Assembly (NCBI GenBank): GCA_001804705.1
Contig: MHAY01000006.1
Location: 1 to 64,000 of the forward strand
DNA from: Ignavibacteria bacterium RIFOXYC2_FULL_35_21
GTDB taxonomy: Bacteria; Bacteroidota; Ignavibacteria; Kapaibacteriales; UBA2268
DNA: 64,000 nucleotides
Direction: 5' to 3'
The notes beneath the pieces are model-generated. The model saw nothing but the letters and a program-made list of their open reading frames with translations. It had not been told where the DNA came from and searched no databases. Below, piece after piece: positions 3,584 to 46,107 of this stretch. A program made the translations under genes and the position numbers. Each line of letters starts with the position of its first letter. Position 1 is the stretch's first letter.

Positions 3584-4058
3584 AATTAAACCTCCATAGT
3601 TTGTGATTGATAATTTATTTTGCAAAATGCGATTAATTCTCCAAAATACGCTTCTATCCTTGTGTTTCGGTCTTTTTTACACTTGTTTTCAAAAAAGCGC
3701 ACCTTTCCTTAATTAAATGACACATAAGAATAGAAAAGGTCTCAAAAAAAATGTATATTTTTTCGAGAGAATATTAACTATAGAAAATTGAGTTGCTTCT
3801 TTAAGCCCCTTTCTGTGCCTCAGAAAAAGAAATAAAAACTAACATTTAACCAATTACAAACCGTAAAATAATAAAAAAATGAACTAAAAAACAAGTGAAT
3901 TTTAATTTATTGCTTATATTGTTGCATATAAGTAAAATAAAGCCTTATTTTTATTGTATTTAGTAATAATTTTATTTTAAATAAAATTTATGATTTATTC
4001 ATATTACAAAAAAACCTTTAAAATCTTAAAAAAAAATTGTCATTCTTTTATGTTGGAT
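3584..4058. other. Gene-free AT-rich spacer
   Basis: This stretch holds the upstream region of the 146-3583 gene, including its ribosome binding site at 3591-3595. I see no coding frame, RNA gene or clear promoter. The part from about 3840 to 4050 is almost entirely A and T. Confidence 0.6.
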
Positions 4059-4194
4059 GAATAGCCACTATTTTTAAATAATGGTAATGGTTCATCACCA
4101 CAAATCGGGATTTATCCCAGGAAGAATTTGTAGGGACACGGCATGCCGTGTCCCTACCATAAAACCTCCACTATCTAAAGATAGAGGCTATTCA
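4059..4194. repeat. MITE-like element, family A copy 1
   Basis: About 136 bp bounded by GAATAGCCACTA and its near reverse complement (GAGGCTATTC). Each end carries a hairpin just inside (CCACTATT/AATAATGG type on the left, CTATCT/AGATAG on the right). The centre holds an unrelated perfect palindrome. Related copies lie at 22221 (left half only), 26706-26839 and 36048-36188. No transposase is encoded, so it would be non-autonomous. Confidence 0.7.
4130..4157. repeat. GTAGGGAC-type palindrome
   Basis: A perfect 28-bp palindrome with the arm GTAGGGACACGGCA, nested inside repeat element 4059-4194. It shares its GTAGRGAC ends, but not its core, with palindromes at 36098-36126, 50421-50446 and the half-forms at 29541-29603. 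Confidence 0.8.
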
Positions 4195-4270
4195 AATTTT
4201 TACTAATATTTATCGGTATTGCTTAGGTTTTTTTTAATTTGCGAAACGACGGTTATTCATTTAAAAAATA

Positions 4271-4794
4271 GTAACTACTCAGCAGATAAAAAATAGAACA
4301 CGGATAACACAGATGTAACGGATTAACACAGATAAAAATGGAAATTCTTCATAAAGATATTACAGAGAAAATGAGCAAGGTGTTTTACAAAGTATATAAT
4401 GAACTCGGGTTTGGTTTTTTAGAGAAGGTGTATGAAAATGCTTTGTATCTTGAATTGGCAGCGATGGGCTTATTTTGCGAAAAGCAAAAGCCAATCAAAG
4501 TACATTACAACGGAAAAATTGTTGGTGAATATTTTGCGGATATAATTGTTAATGGTAGTGTTATCCTTGAACTGAAAGCCGCAGAAGCATTAGCGGAAGA
4601 ACACGAATTACAGTTGATTAATTATCTTAAAGCAACCGGGATAGAGGTTGGACTGCTTTTGAATTTTGGTAAAAAACCACAGTTTAAAAGAAAATTGTTT
4701 ACGAATGATAAAAAGAAAATCAAATTCGTTTAAACCTGTCTAATCCGTGTCATCGGTGTTCTATTTACCAAGTAAGTATCGGGTGAGTAGTTAC
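4271..4794. mobile_element. GxxExxY gene cassette with inverted terminal repeats
   Basis: GTAACTACTCA at 4271-4281 is exactly reversed as TGAGTAGTTAC at 4784-4794. Just inside is a second inverted pair: AATAGAACACGGAT on the left and, reversed, AATAGAACACCGAT on the right, with further CACGGATTA-like words on both sides. The 524-bp unit holds only the GxxExxY gene. Its boundaries suggest it moves or is copied as a unit, but no mobilising enzyme is visible. Confidence 0.65.
4338..4733 (+). CDS. GxxExxY protein
   Basis: 131-residue member of the GxxExxY family, named for the motif seen here as GFLEKVY near residue 27. Later residues include EYFADIIVNG and VILELKAA, which look like the D and E-x-K elements of a PD-(D/E)XK nuclease core; the family has been placed near that fold, but its role is not established. 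The ATG at 4338 gives the usual family start (MEILHKDITEKM). There is no clear ribosome binding site. The gene fills the cassette at 4271-4794 and has no functional link to the downstream membrane peptidase gene. Confidence 0.85.
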   Translation: MEILHKDITEKMSKVFYKVYNELGFGFLEKVYENALYLELAAMGLFCEKQKPIKVHYNGKIVGEYFADIIVNGSVILELKAAEALAEEHELQLINYLKATGIEVGLLLNFGKKPQFKRKLFTNDKKKIKFV

Positions 4795-4810
4795 AAAAAA
4801 TATATAAAAA

Positions 4811-5551
4811 ATGAAAAACAAAATTATAAACCGCAATGTTTTAATACTTCTGATAACAGTTATTGTAACAGTTATGCTCTGGCAATTTCAAACCGGAAGA
4901 TATATCATTTATCCTTTCACAATACTCGGAACATGGTTTCATGAAATGGGACATGGATTGACAGCAATTATTCTTGGAGGTAGTTTCAATTACCTGGAGC
5001 TTTTTCCCGATGGTTCCGGGTTGGCTGTGCATACCGGGAATTTATTGTTTGGCAGCATTGGCAGAGCTGTAGTTGCTGCAGGCGGGCCTGTTTTCCCTAT
5101 TATCATCGGTTCTGTATTAATCATTGCATCGGTAAAATTCAAATCGTCAAATATTATATTGTTTGCTTTTGGATTGTTAATGTTTGTTTCCGTTGCCTTG
5201 TGGGTGAGAACTTTATTCGGCATAGCCTCAATATCGTTAATTGGAGCAGTATTGCTTATAATTTCATTAAGGGCAAACAAGAATGTCAGTTCGTTTATCC
5301 TTCAACTCTTGGGCATAGAAGCATGTGTGAGTTTCTATCTCAATATAGGTTACTATTTTTCAAGCGGAGGTATAATCGAAGGAACATCATATCATTCAGA
5401 CACACAGGTGATAGCAAACAACCTTCTCCTGCCTTACTGGTTCTGGGGTGGAATGATTGTTGCGTTATCTATTTTCGTAATATTTTACAGTTTGAAAATA
5501 ATCGTTAATATGGATAATACACAGAAAGCTGATTTTATTCAATCAGTTTGA
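4811..5551 (+). CDS. M50B-like membrane metalloprotease
   Basis: 246-residue multi-pass membrane protein. HEMGH at residues 44-48 is the zinc-binding HExxH motif, placed at the end of the first hydrophobic segment (about residues 9-40), as in the M50/M50B site-2-protease-like families. A GGP motif at about residue 91 and four or five further hydrophobic segments follow. The usual second zinc ligand motif is not obvious, so activity is uncertain. The gene begins 17 nt after the GxxExxY cassette. Its last 17 bp overlap the 3' end of aspS on the opposite strand. Confidence 0.75.
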   Translation: MKNKIINRNVLILLITVIVTVMLWQFQTGRYIIYPFTILGTWFHEMGHGLTAIILGGSFNYLELFPDGSGLAVHTGNLLFGSIGRAVVAAGGPVFPIIIGSVLIIASVKFKSSNIILFAFGLLMFVSVALWVRTLFGIASISLIGAVLLIISLRANKNVSSFILQLLGIEACVSFYLNIGYYFSSGGIIEGTSYHSDTQVIANNLLLPYWFWGGMIVALSIFVIFYSLKIIVNMDNTQKADFIQSV

Positions 5552-7301
5552 TTCCAAGTTCCTTTAATTGAATATCATCAACATTAGATGGTGCACCGTC
5601 CATAAGTGACAGCCCGCTTGTCGTTTTGGGGAAAGCAATCACGTCACGGATGTTTTCAGTACCTGTCAAAATCATAACAATTCTATCAAGGCCTAATGCA
5701 ATTCCTCCATGCGGCGGACATCCATACTTCAATGCTTCAAGCAGAAATCCGAATTTAGAATCCGCTTCTTCTTTACTGAGTCCGAGCAGATTAAACATTT
5801 TCTCCTGTATTTCCCTGTTATGAATTCTGATACTGCCGCCCCCGACTTCGGCACCGTTGATTACTACGTCATAAGCCTTGGCTCTCGCTTTCGCCGGTTC
5901 TGAATCGAGTAATGAAATATCTTCATCCATAGGTGAAGTGAATGGGTGGTGCATAGCGGCATATCTTCCCGAATCCTCGTCAAATTCGAGAAGTGGAAAA
6001 TCCAAAATCCATAGAAAGGAAAATTTATTTTTAACTGCATCTATTATTCCTGTTTGCTTTGCAATTTCAAGTCTCAATGCACCGAGAATAGTACATGCTC
6101 TTGCCCAAATGTCAGATGAGAATAAAAGGAGGTCCCCGTTTTCGCAATTTGTGCGTTTTTTTATTTCTTCGATTTCATTTTGCTTGAGAAATTTTGCAAT
6201 AGGAGAATTAATTTCACCATCAACTATTTTCAGCCATGCTATTCCTTTTGCTCCGTATTTCTTTGCAAGTTCTGTGAGCTCGTCAATTTTTTTTCTTGAA
6301 AAATCAGCACAACCTTTTGCATTCAGAACCTTGACAACTCCACCGCCATTCACAGTATCGGAAAAAACTTTAAATTCAGAATTTTTCACAATATCGGAAA
6401 CATCTGTTAATTCGATTTCAAATCTTAAATCGGGTTTGTCGCTTCCGTACCGGTTCATTGCTTCATCATAGCTCATCCTGAGGAATGGCGTCAGCACTTC
6501 AATTCCGAGAACTTCTTTCCAGAGCCTTGCAAAAAATCCTTCAGTCATCGAGAGTACATCTTCTCTTTCGATGAATGACATTTCGAGGTCAATCTGTGTA
6601 AATTCAGGCTGGCGGTCAGAACGCAGGTCTTCGTCGCGAAAGCATTTCACAATCTGTACATATCGGTCGAAACCTGCCATCATCAGGATTTGCTTGTAAA
6701 GTTGTGGTGATTGCGGGAGAGCATAAAACCTTCCTTTATAAATCCTGCTTGGTACAAGATAATCCCTTGCACCTTCGGGTGTGGATTTCATTAAAAACGG
6801 TGTTTCAACTTCAATAAAATTATTTTCGTTGAAATATTTGTGAACAACCTGGTACACATCATTTCTGACAATGAATTGCTTTTGCAGGCTGTGGCGGCGT
6901 AAATCGAGGAATCTGTATTTGAGTTTTATTTCTTCGCTTGTTCCGATATCATCAACAATTTCAAACGGAGGCAGTTCTGCTTTATTTATTATTCCGAAAT
7001 CTTCGAGTTGAATTTCAATCAATCCGGTAGGAATATTCGGGTTGGGATTCTCCCTCATTCTGACTTTTCCTTTTGCCCAAATCACAAATTCGGACTTTAT
7101 TTCCTTTGACCTTTCGGCAAGCTCCGCCTGGGTTTCAGGATGAATAACAAGTTGAGTGATGCCGTACCTGTCGCGCAAATCAATAAAGATTAATCCGCCA
7201 AGGTCGCGGACAGTCTGAACCCAGCCGTTAAGTATAACTATTTTGTCACAATCTTCTTTACGAAGGTTGCCGCATGTATCTGTTCTTTTAAGAAAATTCA
7301 T
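5535..7301 (-). CDS. aspS: Aspartate--tRNA ligase
   Basis: 588-residue class II aminoacyl-tRNA synthetase of the bacterial AspRS type, charging tRNA-Asp (or Asp and Asn in non-discriminating forms). The N-terminal OB-fold anticodon domain covers residues 1-110. Motif 2 appears as CFRDEDLRSDRQPEFTQ, followed by DLEMSF. The bacterial GAD insertion occupies roughly 290-410. Motif 3 is GGIALGLDRIVMILTG. Length is normal for the family. ATG at 7301 gives the usual start. The 3' end overlaps the M50-like gene convergently by 17 bp. Confidence 0.97.
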   Translation of the reverse strand: MNFLKRTDTCGNLRKEDCDKIVILNGWVQTVRDLGGLIFIDLRDRYGITQLVIHPETQAELAERSKEIKSEFVIWAKGKVRMRENPNPNIPTGLIEIQLEDFGIINKAELPPFEIVDDIGTSEEIKLKYRFLDLRRHSLQKQFIVRNDVYQVVHKYFNENNFIEVETPFLMKSTPEGARDYLVPSRIYKGRFYALPQSPQLYKQILMMAGFDRYVQIVKCFRDEDLRSDRQPEFTQIDLEMSFIEREDVLSMTEGFFARLWKEVLGIEVLTPFLRMSYDEAMNRYGSDKPDLRFEIELTDVSDIVKNSEFKVFSDTVNGGGVVKVLNAKGCADFSRKKIDELTELAKKYGAKGIAWLKIVDGEINSPIAKFLKQNEIEEIKKRTNCENGDLLLFSSDIWARACTILGALRLEIAKQTGIIDAVKNKFSFLWILDFPLLEFDEDSGRYAAMHHPFTSPMDEDISLLDSEPAKARAKAYDVVINGAEVGGGSIRIHNREIQEKMFNLLGLSKEEADSKFGFLLEALKYGCPPHGGIALGLDRIVMILTGTENIRDVIAFPKTTSGLSLMDGAPSNVDDIQLKELGIKLIE

Positions 7302-43360: not shown

Positions 43361-43410
43361 GACAACCTCTCAACTTTAAAATAGAAAGTTCATTTATGCT
43401 CAATAAAGCT

Positions 43411-43432
43411 CCCCTCCCACACACAGGAGGGG
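43411..43432. repeat. GC-rich hairpin
   Basis: CCCCTCC pairs with GGAGGGG around CACACACA. In this AT-rich gap it stands out. It is upstream of the 42707-43360 gene and not at a position expected for a terminator. Confidence 0.4.
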
Positions 43433-43533
43433 ATACTATGAGCATGGCAAAAAACGGCGGCTATTCACTCACAAGTATATATTAACCAATTTTCGTGCCA
43501 ATAGGGAAATAAATGAATTTATGAAAATATGAC

Positions 43534-43564
43534 TTTGTTAGAAAGCATTAATTCTATATTTTTG
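43534..43564 (+). promoter_or_regulatory. Promoter of the methyltransferase gene
   Basis: TTTG (43534-43537) and TATTTTTG (43557-43564) are 19 bp apart, the same element and nearly the same spacing as before rplS. Transcription would start near 43571, inside the operator-like repeats. Confidence 0.5.
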
Positions 43565-43590
43565 TTTCATATTGTTTCATAATGTTTCAA
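43562..43590 (+). promoter_or_regulatory. Three direct TGTTTCA repeats at 10-bp spacing
   Basis: TGTTTCA occurs at 43563, 43573 and 43583, exactly one helical turn apart, overlapping the -7 element and the expected start of transcription. Such an array just before ATG 43601 would suit a repressor; the methyltransferase's own N-terminal helix-turn-helix domain is a natural candidate. Confidence 0.5.
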
Positions 43591-43600
43591 TTTTTCAATA

Positions 43601-45079
43601 ATGGCATCATATAAGAAGGAAAAAGAAGTTTTAAAAATACTTAATATTTCAAGAACGACTTTATGGCGTTTGAAGAAAAAAGGATTACCACATATTAAAG
43701 TTGGTGATTCAGTTAGATATGTAATAGATGAAGTACGAGATTGGATCGCTTCAGAACCAACAACATCTTATCAGTCCTCGTTAGAATTGAGTAATCAAAT
43801 TGAAGAAATTCAAATTGAGAAAGAAAGAATACTTAATCATTATAATATAGATCTAGATTACCTTTTCGAAAGTAATTATTTCTATTTAAAAAAAATATTA
43901 AAAGATAATGAAATTATTAAGTTAAAATCAACTTTGAAAAGTTATAAAGATGATGGCCTTCCTAACCAAGAAATAGTCAGGATTTTTAGCAAAGAATATA
44001 TAAAATTTATACGAAGTAAATATAGAGAACAAACCCGTCTAAGTGAATTTGATGAGAAGTTAAATAATTTTCTTAATCAAAAAGATAGAACCATAAAAGT
44101 AATATGGGGTGATGCTTATAAAGTTTTAAGAAAACTTGAAAGTGAATCTATACAATTAATGGTTACATCACCACCATATTTTAACGCAAGGGCATACTCT
44201 CAATGGGATGATTTAAATATATATCTTAATGATATGAGAAATATAATTCGAGAAAGTTATAGAGTTCTTGATAATCACAGAGTATGGGTATTTAATGTTG
44301 GAGATATTTTCGATAATGACCAGATTACTACTAAATCCGTTTGGGGAAAAAGGCGAATACCTCTAGGAGCATATTTTATTAAAATATTTGAAGAAGAAGG
44401 ATTTGAATTTGTTGATGATATAATTTGGGATAAAGGAGAGGTGGAAAGTAAAAGACATATGAATAATGGAATTAATTATCCATTATACCAATATCCATTG
44501 AATTGTTACGAACATTTATTAATATTTCATAAGCATAGATTAGATAAAAGTAAAATTCCTTGTCCCGTTTGTGGTTCTTTGAAGGTAAATGGGAATACAC
44601 AATCTGAAATTGGTGTTCAAAGTTGGGAATGTAAAAATCGAAATTGTTTTATTAGAAGTCCCCATAATAGAGGTAAAAGATTTTCATTGAGAACAAACCT
44701 TATGCAATATAATCACGATAATGATAAAGATAATTTAATTGATTCAAAAACAATTAATATGTGGAGAAGAGATATAGTAAAATTTCCACCTGTTATAAAA
44801 ATAAATCAAAATGGTGAAAACATATTAGGTCATTCTGCACCATTTCCTGAAGATATTCCAAGTATGGCAATAAAATACTTTACTTATGTAGGTGAAAATG
44901 TTATGGATCCATTTGCAGGGAGTTTTACTGTACCAATAGTTGCTCAAAAATTAAACCGTGTTGGAATTGGAATTGAAATAAATAAGGATTTATTTAGAAA
45001 AGCAATATTGAAAAGAATCAACAATTCATTGAATGTTTTTGAATCAGGAGATACATTTGAAGAATTTGATGTTTCTTAA
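43601..45079 (+). CDS. DNA methyltransferase with N-terminal HTH and zinc ribbon
   Basis: 492-residue protein. Residues 1-50 are an excisionase/MerR-type helix-turn-helix (VLKILNISRTTLWRLKKKG, then VRDWIAS). The catalytic motif IV is TSPPY (189-193) and motif I is MDPFAGSFT (435-443); this order marks the beta class, and SPPY suggests N4-cytosine, though N6-adenine is possible. Between them, CPVC (321-324) and CKNRNC (344-349) form a zinc ribbon in the likely target-recognition region. It faces a zinc-ribbon nuclease gene with a 4-bp overlap of stops, pointing to a restriction-modification system. Confidence 0.85.
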   Translation: MASYKKEKEVLKILNISRTTLWRLKKKGLPHIKVGDSVRYVIDEVRDWIASEPTTSYQSSLELSNQIEEIQIEKERILNHYNIDLDYLFESNYFYLKKILKDNEIIKLKSTLKSYKDDGLPNQEIVRIFSKEYIKFIRSKYREQTRLSEFDEKLNNFLNQKDRTIKVIWGDAYKVLRKLESESIQLMVTSPPYFNARAYSQWDDLNIYLNDMRNIIRESYRVLDNHRVWVFNVGDIFDNDQITTKSVWGKRRIPLGAYFIKIFEEEGFEFVDDIIWDKGEVESKRHMNNGINYPLYQYPLNCYEHLLIFHKHRLDKSKIPCPVCGSLKVNGNTQSEIGVQSWECKNRNCFIRSPHNRGKRFSLRTNLMQYNHDNDKDNLIDSKTINMWRRDIVKFPPVIKINQNGENILGHSAPFPEDIPSMAIKYFTYVGENVMDPFAGSFTVPIVAQKLNRVGIGIEINKDLFRKAILKRINNSLNVFESGDTFEEFDVS

Positions 45080-46029
45080 AAATCTCCTTTTATAAATCTA
45101 TTTAACTTTGCAAAAACATCAACTTTTTGTAACTGTTTTTCTATTTCAATAATCTTATTAATTTCTTTTCTTTTTCTTGCTTTTTCAAGGTCAAAAGTAC
45201 ATTTATTATATTCAATTTCATTAAAAAATGATTGGCTTTTATTTGTTGGTGGATGTAACCGAGCATTTTGATAAATAAGTTTAGAGGCAGATTCGGATAA
45301 CATCTCATTATTAAATTCATCTACGGACATTACCCAAAAATTATGTTTTTCTTTATAATCTTCAAAAGTTCTTGAATACACAACTAAAAAGTGTCTCTCA
45401 TCATCAATTAAATCTTGTAATTTGAAATTAAATCCAATTTTTCCACCTTCTTCTTCATGTGAAGATTTCACTTGAATTGTACGAATAATCAAAGCGTAAT
45501 CAATACTATCACATCCAGGATTTTGACATTTTGTATTTCTTGGTTTTATCTCACTTCCGCATATTTTACATACCGGATATTCAACACAATTATTACTTCC
45601 ACATTTGACACAACTTCTTGTTTGACTACTAAAACTATGTTTGCAGAAATTACATGTAAACTGATAATTTCTTTGGCCACTTGTTGTAATAAGATTAGAA
45701 GTCATCTTTGTATCACATTTAGGGCAATCGTGCTCAGTAGTATATTTATTGAAAATATAACCACAATCGAGGCATTTTCTAGTTTTTAGATAATCCTTCT
45801 GGTTTAAATCTTTTAAAAAATTTTTACAATTCTTATCACTACAGCTAACAATATGTTTAGATTCCCAATCACTAAAACATTTTTTACATACAAATTTTTG
45901 GGCAATAAAGTCAATCCTTGTATCAAAGTAGGGTCTATAAACAAACCAATTTCTTTTTGCTAATTCAAAGGCTACCATATTTTCGCCAATACTACCAAAA
46001 AGACCACTTTTAATATCCTGATTCAGCAT
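45076..46029 (-). CDS. PD-(D/E)XK nuclease-like protein with four inserted zinc ribbons, candidate restriction enzyme
   Basis: 317-residue protein. GSIGENMVAFELAKRNW (Glu16), RIDFI (Asp40) and IQVKSS (Gln186, Lys188) look like the E, D and QxK elements of a PD-(D/E)XK core. Between Asp40 and Gln186 lie eight Cys pairs: C48/C51, C63/C68, C86/C89, C102/C105, C126/C129, C140/C143, C154/C157 and C168/C173, enough for four zinc ribbons. The last pairs (CKIC, CQNPGC) resemble the ribbon in the facing methyltransferase. I infer a restriction endonuclease whose ribbons read DNA; no matching family is known to me. Confidence 0.65.
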   Translation of the reverse strand: MLNQDIKSGLFGSIGENMVAFELAKRNWFVYRPYFDTRIDFIAQKFVCKKCFSDWESKHIVSCSDKNCKNFLKDLNQKDYLKTRKCLDCGYIFNKYTTEHDCPKCDTKMTSNLITTSGQRNYQFTCNFCKHSFSSQTRSCVKCGSNNCVEYPVCKICGSEIKPRNTKCQNPGCDSIDYALIIRTIQVKSSHEEEGGKIGFNFKLQDLIDDERHFLVVYSRTFEDYKEKHNFWVMSVDEFNNEMLSESASKLIYQNARLHPPTNKSQSFFNEIEYNKCTFDLEKARKRKEINKIIEIEKQLQKVDVFAKLNRFIKGDF

Positions 46030-46107
46030 AAGATTTTTCTATCTAAATAGTTGTATAACAGAAAATTTTATCAAATATAAGAAAAATTCTTTATTTTCAA
46101 AATAATT

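Follow-up and report, generated by a model that had tools for sequence, protein, structure and literature searches.

Type II restriction-modification (R-M) systems of the PvuII kind pair a stand-alone beta-class amino-methyltransferase, with motif IV ahead of motif I, with a small adjoining nuclease, and use neither a helicase nor a specificity subunit. Cys4 metal sites are known in several restriction enzymes, with zinc in DpnI, BslI and PacI and iron in NotI; in DpnI the site occurs together with a PD-(D/E)XK core, and Vsr, a variant of the same fold, likewise has a Cys4 zinc site (PMC4081073). Autorepression through an N-terminal HTH, with an operator-like site over the enzyme's own promoter, is known for M.SsoII, M.EcoRII, M.MspI and others, all of them C5-methyltransferases (PMC3978073, PMC3874152).

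The 64,000-nucleotide stretch analyzed here (the window; contig MHAY01000006.1 of Ignavibacteria bacterium RIFOXYC2_FULL_35_21) contains a pair of PvuII-like layout, again free of helicase and specificity subunit. The two ORFs lie on opposite strands and converge (Table 1), and their stop codons overlap by 4 bp, as first proposed. It differs from PvuII-like systems in that its nuclease belongs to an unrelated, seemingly undescribed family with inserted ribbons, and its methyltransferase carries, in addition, an HTH at the N terminus and a ribbon within the recognition region. We read the pair, with a probability of about 80%, as a type II-like R-M cassette, with proposed HTH autorepression, in which the partner of this methyltransferase is a nuclease that is PD-(D/E)XK-like and represents a new family. 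The methyltransferase would mark a target in host DNA, probably at N4-cytosine, and the nuclease would cut the same target, unmarked, in incoming DNA; together the two enzymes would destroy foreign DNA.

Between the window and the copy in a sister species (G001, locus L004), dN/dS was 0.079 for the methyltransferase and 0.085 for the nuclease, indicating that both are real genes and, judged by these ratios, under strong purifying selection. An Rfam search over the locus gave no match.

Table 1 Positions of the features of the methyltransferase-nuclease locus in the window.
Feature	Position	Strand	Basis or remark
Whole cassette as inserted	43511..46105	.	Missing in G003 of the same genus; 43510 and 46106 meet there to within about 10 bp
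Promoter-like -33 element TTTG, 19 bases from the -7 box	43534..43537	+	Consensus from PMC7366714
Promoter-like -7 box TATTTTTG (TAnnTTTG), overlaps first repeat	43557..43564	+	
Three TGTTTCA direct repeats, 10-bp period, candidate operator	43563..43589 (43563-43569, 43573-43579, 43583-43589)	+	
Beta-class DNA amino-methyltransferase, 492 aa	43601..45079	+	
HTH_17 domain, aa 8-51	43622..43753	+	Pfam
Motif IV TSPPY, aa 189-193	44165..44179	+	Sequence motif
Cys4 ribbon CPVC...CKNRNC, target-recognition region, aa 321-349	44561..44647	+	Cys pattern
Motif I DPFAGSFT, aa 436-443	44906..44929	+	Sequence motif
Overlapping stop codons, common 4-bp palindrome TTAA	45076..45079	.	ORF stops of both genes
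PD-(D/E)XK-like nuclease with four ribbons, 317 aa	45076..46029	-	
Q186-V-K188 catalytic motif (predicted)	45466..45474	-	Q and K invariant
Array of four Cys4 ribbons, aa 48-173	45511..45888	-	Cys pattern
D40, catalytic (predicted)	45910..45912	-	Invariant
E16, first core helix	45982..45984	-	Invariant

Methyltransferase and nuclease

The methyltransferase matched the Pfam families N6_N4_Mtase (3.7e-31) and HTH_17 (1.9e-6, above the cut-off). Its motifs are complete, and their order (IV, then the recognition region with the ribbon, then I) is that of the beta class, in agreement with the original prediction of a beta-class enzyme with an HTH of its own and one zinc ribbon. Its solved sequence relatives include the PvuII methyltransferase; the closest comprise several N4-cytosine enzymes, with the adenine enzyme MboIIA also among them. 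Because of these relatives and the SPPY motif, our guess is that the methyl mark is probably N4-cytosine.

To predict the target, avoidance of palindromes and gapped palindromes was compared between 1.07 Mb of the window's genome and 0.36 Mb from a genome of the same genus that lacks the pair; no word was convincingly depleted in the window's genome alone, so that no target emerged, and CCA-N6-TGG was not depleted. GATC was strongly depleted in the same 1.07 Mb, window included (observed/expected 0.10; 0.09 in same-genus G002), as were CTAG, GGCC and GTCGAC, which hints at restriction pressure of another or an older origin in this genus.

The nuclease shows the predicted arrangement of four ribbons between the catalytic Asp and QxK of a PD-(D/E)XK-like protein, the fold being assigned by motif. 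The ribbons (CKKC48/CSDKNC63, CLDC86/CPKC102, CNFC126/CVKC140 and CKIC154/CQNPGC168) comprise 16 Cys, all between D40 and Q186-x-K188, and 16/16 were kept in the sister-species copy (L004, 79% identical). Their spacing points to metal binding. E16, D40, Q186 and K188 are invariant in the eight nucleases compared, the other seven being 22–79% identical to that of the window.

An AlphaFold model of the window nuclease, of moderate quality (pLDDT 76, pTM 0.59), has a helix at residues 8-25 and strands at 41-48 and 178-192, placing the ribbon insert between the two strands; the core would thereby consist of a helix, a strand beside D40 and a strand with QxK. The predicted structure of a one-ribbon nuclease had a pLDDT of 36 and was rejected. 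Structure prediction, proposed earlier as a check, did not yield a significant fold assignment, the best PDB match being I-Ssp6803I (prob 0.57, E 0.097, not significant), a PD-(D/E)XK homing endonuclease that has no methyltransferase. On motif conservation and on the topology of this moderate model, we call the protein PD-(D/E)XK-like.

Searches of the nuclease against Pfam, NCBIfam, PHROG, PADLOC and PDB gave no convincing family match. Profile searches with or without the ribbons gave no PD-(D/E)XK match, and none matched a solved restriction enzyme. The ribbon-excised core had no match in Pfam or PDB, Foldseek of the model against viral structures returned nothing significant, and PDDEXK_5 (PF11645), sought in the nuclease relatives, gave no usable match. 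The lack of any library match supports the earlier proposal of a new system in that the nuclease appears to represent an undescribed endonuclease family, which would add a restriction endonuclease family missing from the curated libraries searched. Weak PADLOC matches to PD-T7-4 and DrmB (E above 0.002) were set aside as compositional, because they fall largely on the Cys region.

Ribbon number and target reading

The number of ribbons between D and QxK is one in G005, G440, G516 and the viral contig L007, three in G540 (L063) and G676 (L061), and four in the window and G001 (L004). Across these one-, three- and four-ribbon systems the methyltransferase recognition region is 60–94% identical to that of the window, 60% identity being no proof of an identical target. 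A methyltransferase on the phage contig L068, 53% identical to the window's overall and 70% in the recognition region, has the same ribbon and adjoins a BstXI-family enzyme (PF09552, 1.9e-8). The window nuclease was itself considered as a member of this family and rejected, having no PF09552 match, whereas the L068 partner does match.

The original prediction took ribbons of the same type in both enzymes as a sign of common target reading, that is, of an R-M system whose nuclease ribbons read the target in the manner of the methyltransferase ribbon. Nuclease ribbons 1 and 4 and the methyltransferase ribbon are all of the CxxC/CxxxxC type, and the latter lies within the recognition region. However, the number of nuclease ribbons varies while the recognition region stays similar, L068 has such a methyltransferase together with a BstXI-family enzyme, and the inter-knuckle spacing differs, at x19 in the methyltransferase ribbon against x10-12 in the nuclease ribbons. 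The first two points mean that the matching ribbon type is no evidence for joint target reading, and we consider this reading unlikely.

A scaffold, clamp or dimer role for the ribbons would be more economical; within the preferred R-M reading they would likely form a rigid arm gripping DNA or a partner subunit. A more specific idea, which we put forward tentatively and regard as rather doubtful, is that the array forms a modular arm for reading or clamping DNA, extended to one, three and four ribbons inside the catalytic hairpin and changing the grip on DNA or the cutting position and leaving the target unchanged, with the methyltransferase recognition region staying similar. If true, this would be a natural ribbon nuclease in which modules between catalytic residues alter grip or cutting position at a constant target. 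The range from one to four zinc ribbons that occurs naturally at the active-site hairpin makes the effect of such insertions directly testable.

The 16-Cys array in the catalytic core had also been put forward as undescribed. Because Cys4 sites were already known in DpnI, BslI, PacI and NotI, this applies only to the multi-ribbon array inside the core: unlike DpnI, BslI and NotI, the present family has one to four ribbons inserted after the catalytic Asp and before the QxK strand, in a number that varies within the family. To our knowledge, no variable multi-ribbon array inside the catalytic core of a restriction enzyme has been described.

Distribution and co-inheritance of the pair

The eight pairs known come from seven bacterial genomes (window, G001, G005, G440, G516, G540 and G676) and L007. 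Among 60 relatives, the nuclease search picked out same-genus G001, which has the pair, and G005, which has a short homologue. Searching with the methyltransferase added G440, G516, G540 and G676 from the family and class, and L007 from a viral collection. Five of the eight were thus first found via the methyltransferase. When 391 genomes of the class were searched with a nuclease profile, independently of the methyltransferase, the picture stayed the same: the search returned the known pairs and a single further copy, in G565, other matches at E 0.0005–0.01 spanning short stretches and being left uncounted. A phylum-wide sample of 395 genomes contained no further member of either family.

All eight intact nuclease homologues directly adjoin this methyltransferase, in tandem or convergent orientation. 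The lone copy in G565 (L082 4706-5276), of the three-ribbon type and adjoining an rpiB-like gene, is a pseudogene disrupted by internal stops and a break, with no methyltransferase detectable near it. The original prediction had named nucleases occurring mostly without a methyltransferase as the observation that would count against R-M; among the 391 genomes of the class there was no intact lone nuclease.

In G003, of the same genus, the whole 2.6 kb are missing, leaving a clean empty site, and the G001 pair stands at the same place as that of the window; the neighbors differ in the other genomes. In same-genus G002 (L021 3386-6709) this site is occupied by a sigma-factor-like gene plus two others, so it may be an insertion hot spot. 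Distances of methyltransferases and nuclease cores were correlated (Mantel r 0.87, reached by 4/5000 permutations). Presence and loss as one unit, as read from these genomes, is the behavior of R-M cassettes and, with the constant adjacency of the two genes, gives good support to the R-M reading.

The affinities of the two genes diverge in G540 (L063 695-2769): its methyltransferase is nearer the one-ribbon Bacteroidota group (63–64% identity) and its nuclease nearer the many-ribbon group (40% core identity versus 27–31%). The tree does not resolve this mismatch, and partner exchange is possible.

Two further explanations of the pair were weighed. The nuclease-like protein could be catalytically dead or a regulator, in which case the methyltransferase would be solitary and accompanied by a Cys-rich protein that binds DNA; the nuclease-like protein had no significant nuclease profile or fold match, and many zinc ribbons bind DNA. 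Yet E16, D40, Q186 and K188 are invariant in homologues down to 22% identity, the lone copy in G565 has decayed, and nuclease dN/dS between the window and L004 was lowest over the two segments bearing the catalytic residues (0.008 over aa 6-46 and 0.032 over aa 177-240), which makes a dead nuclease very unlikely. A repair function, with the methyltransferase as an epigenetic regulator providing the marked sites and the nuclease as a zinc-bearing, PD-(D/E)XK-variant enzyme like Vsr that nicks mismatches arising there, is hardly credible: Vsr serves C5-methylcytosine, whereas no such mismatch is expected from an N6/N4 amino-methyltransferase, and the two genes move and disappear together, with decay of the lone nuclease, as expected for a toxic enzyme and not needed for a harmless repair enzyme.

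Methyltransferases resembling that of the window also occur with other partners. The L068 pair (3992-6391; IMGVR_UViG_3300042549_009763) lies beside a recombination-nuclease-like gene and is an apparently complete R-M pair on a phage-like contig. Staphylococcus phage PG-2021_1 (L005 3622-5903) carries a run of three methyltransferase-like genes, of which one is 46% identical to the window's and has the ribbon; no nuclease of this ribbon family adjoins them, and they are possibly an anti-restriction set. A methyltransferase fragment of a Staphylococcus plasmid (L006) was rejected as a link to BstXI specificity, since it lacks the ribbon region, with 18% identity over that part, and M.BstXI resembles type I methyltransferases (PMC4335341). 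No BstXI-family enzyme was found elsewhere in the host genome, but the control search was also empty.

Upstream repeats and proposed autorepression

HTH_17 was detected in the methyltransferases of the window and G676. Upstream of the methyltransferase, TGTTTCA is repeated at exact 10-bp spacing, with three copies in the window, three in G001 (L004) and two in G676 (L061); there were none upstream in the five HTH-less systems and no tandem TGTTTCA repeat elsewhere in 1.07 Mb of the window's genome. When the 100 bases upstream were shuffled, the window or L004 value was reached in 0/5000 cases and the L061 value in 179/5000; the two copies in L061 count mainly because the motif is identical to that of the window. 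A convergent nuclease gene is found only in these three HTH-bearing systems.

In all three HTH-bearing systems the first repeat overlaps a TAnnTTTG box, the sequence that serves the primary sigma factor of Bacteroidota as its -7 element (PMC7366714). As a -33 element L004 has TTG, with a distance of 20 bases to the box, and L061 is without one. As the repeats lie over the -7 box in the three HTH-bearing systems and are absent from the five HTH-less ones, the methyltransferase probably switches off its own gene through them: in this branch it would bind the TGTTTCA repeats over its promoter and limit its own level. The arrangement resembles that of the SsoII-, EcoRII- and MspI-type autorepressors; those are C5-methyltransferases, whereas the present enzyme is a beta-class amino-methyltransferase (N6_N4_Mtase), and M.SsoII binds a quasi-palindrome whereas the repeats here are direct and spaced by 10 bp. 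The HTH and the direct repeats over a Bacteroidota promoter would thus give a testable autorepression circuit for a beta-class enzyme, the HTH autorepressors named in PMC3978073 being C5-methyltransferases.

A separate conserved intergenic element (CTCCCCTCCCACACACAGGAGGGG...GAGCATGGCAAAAAACGGCGGCT) at 43407-43465 of the window, for which Rfam gave no match, lies upstream of a 217-aa gene; it has a terminator-like hairpin and is kept in both G001 and G003.
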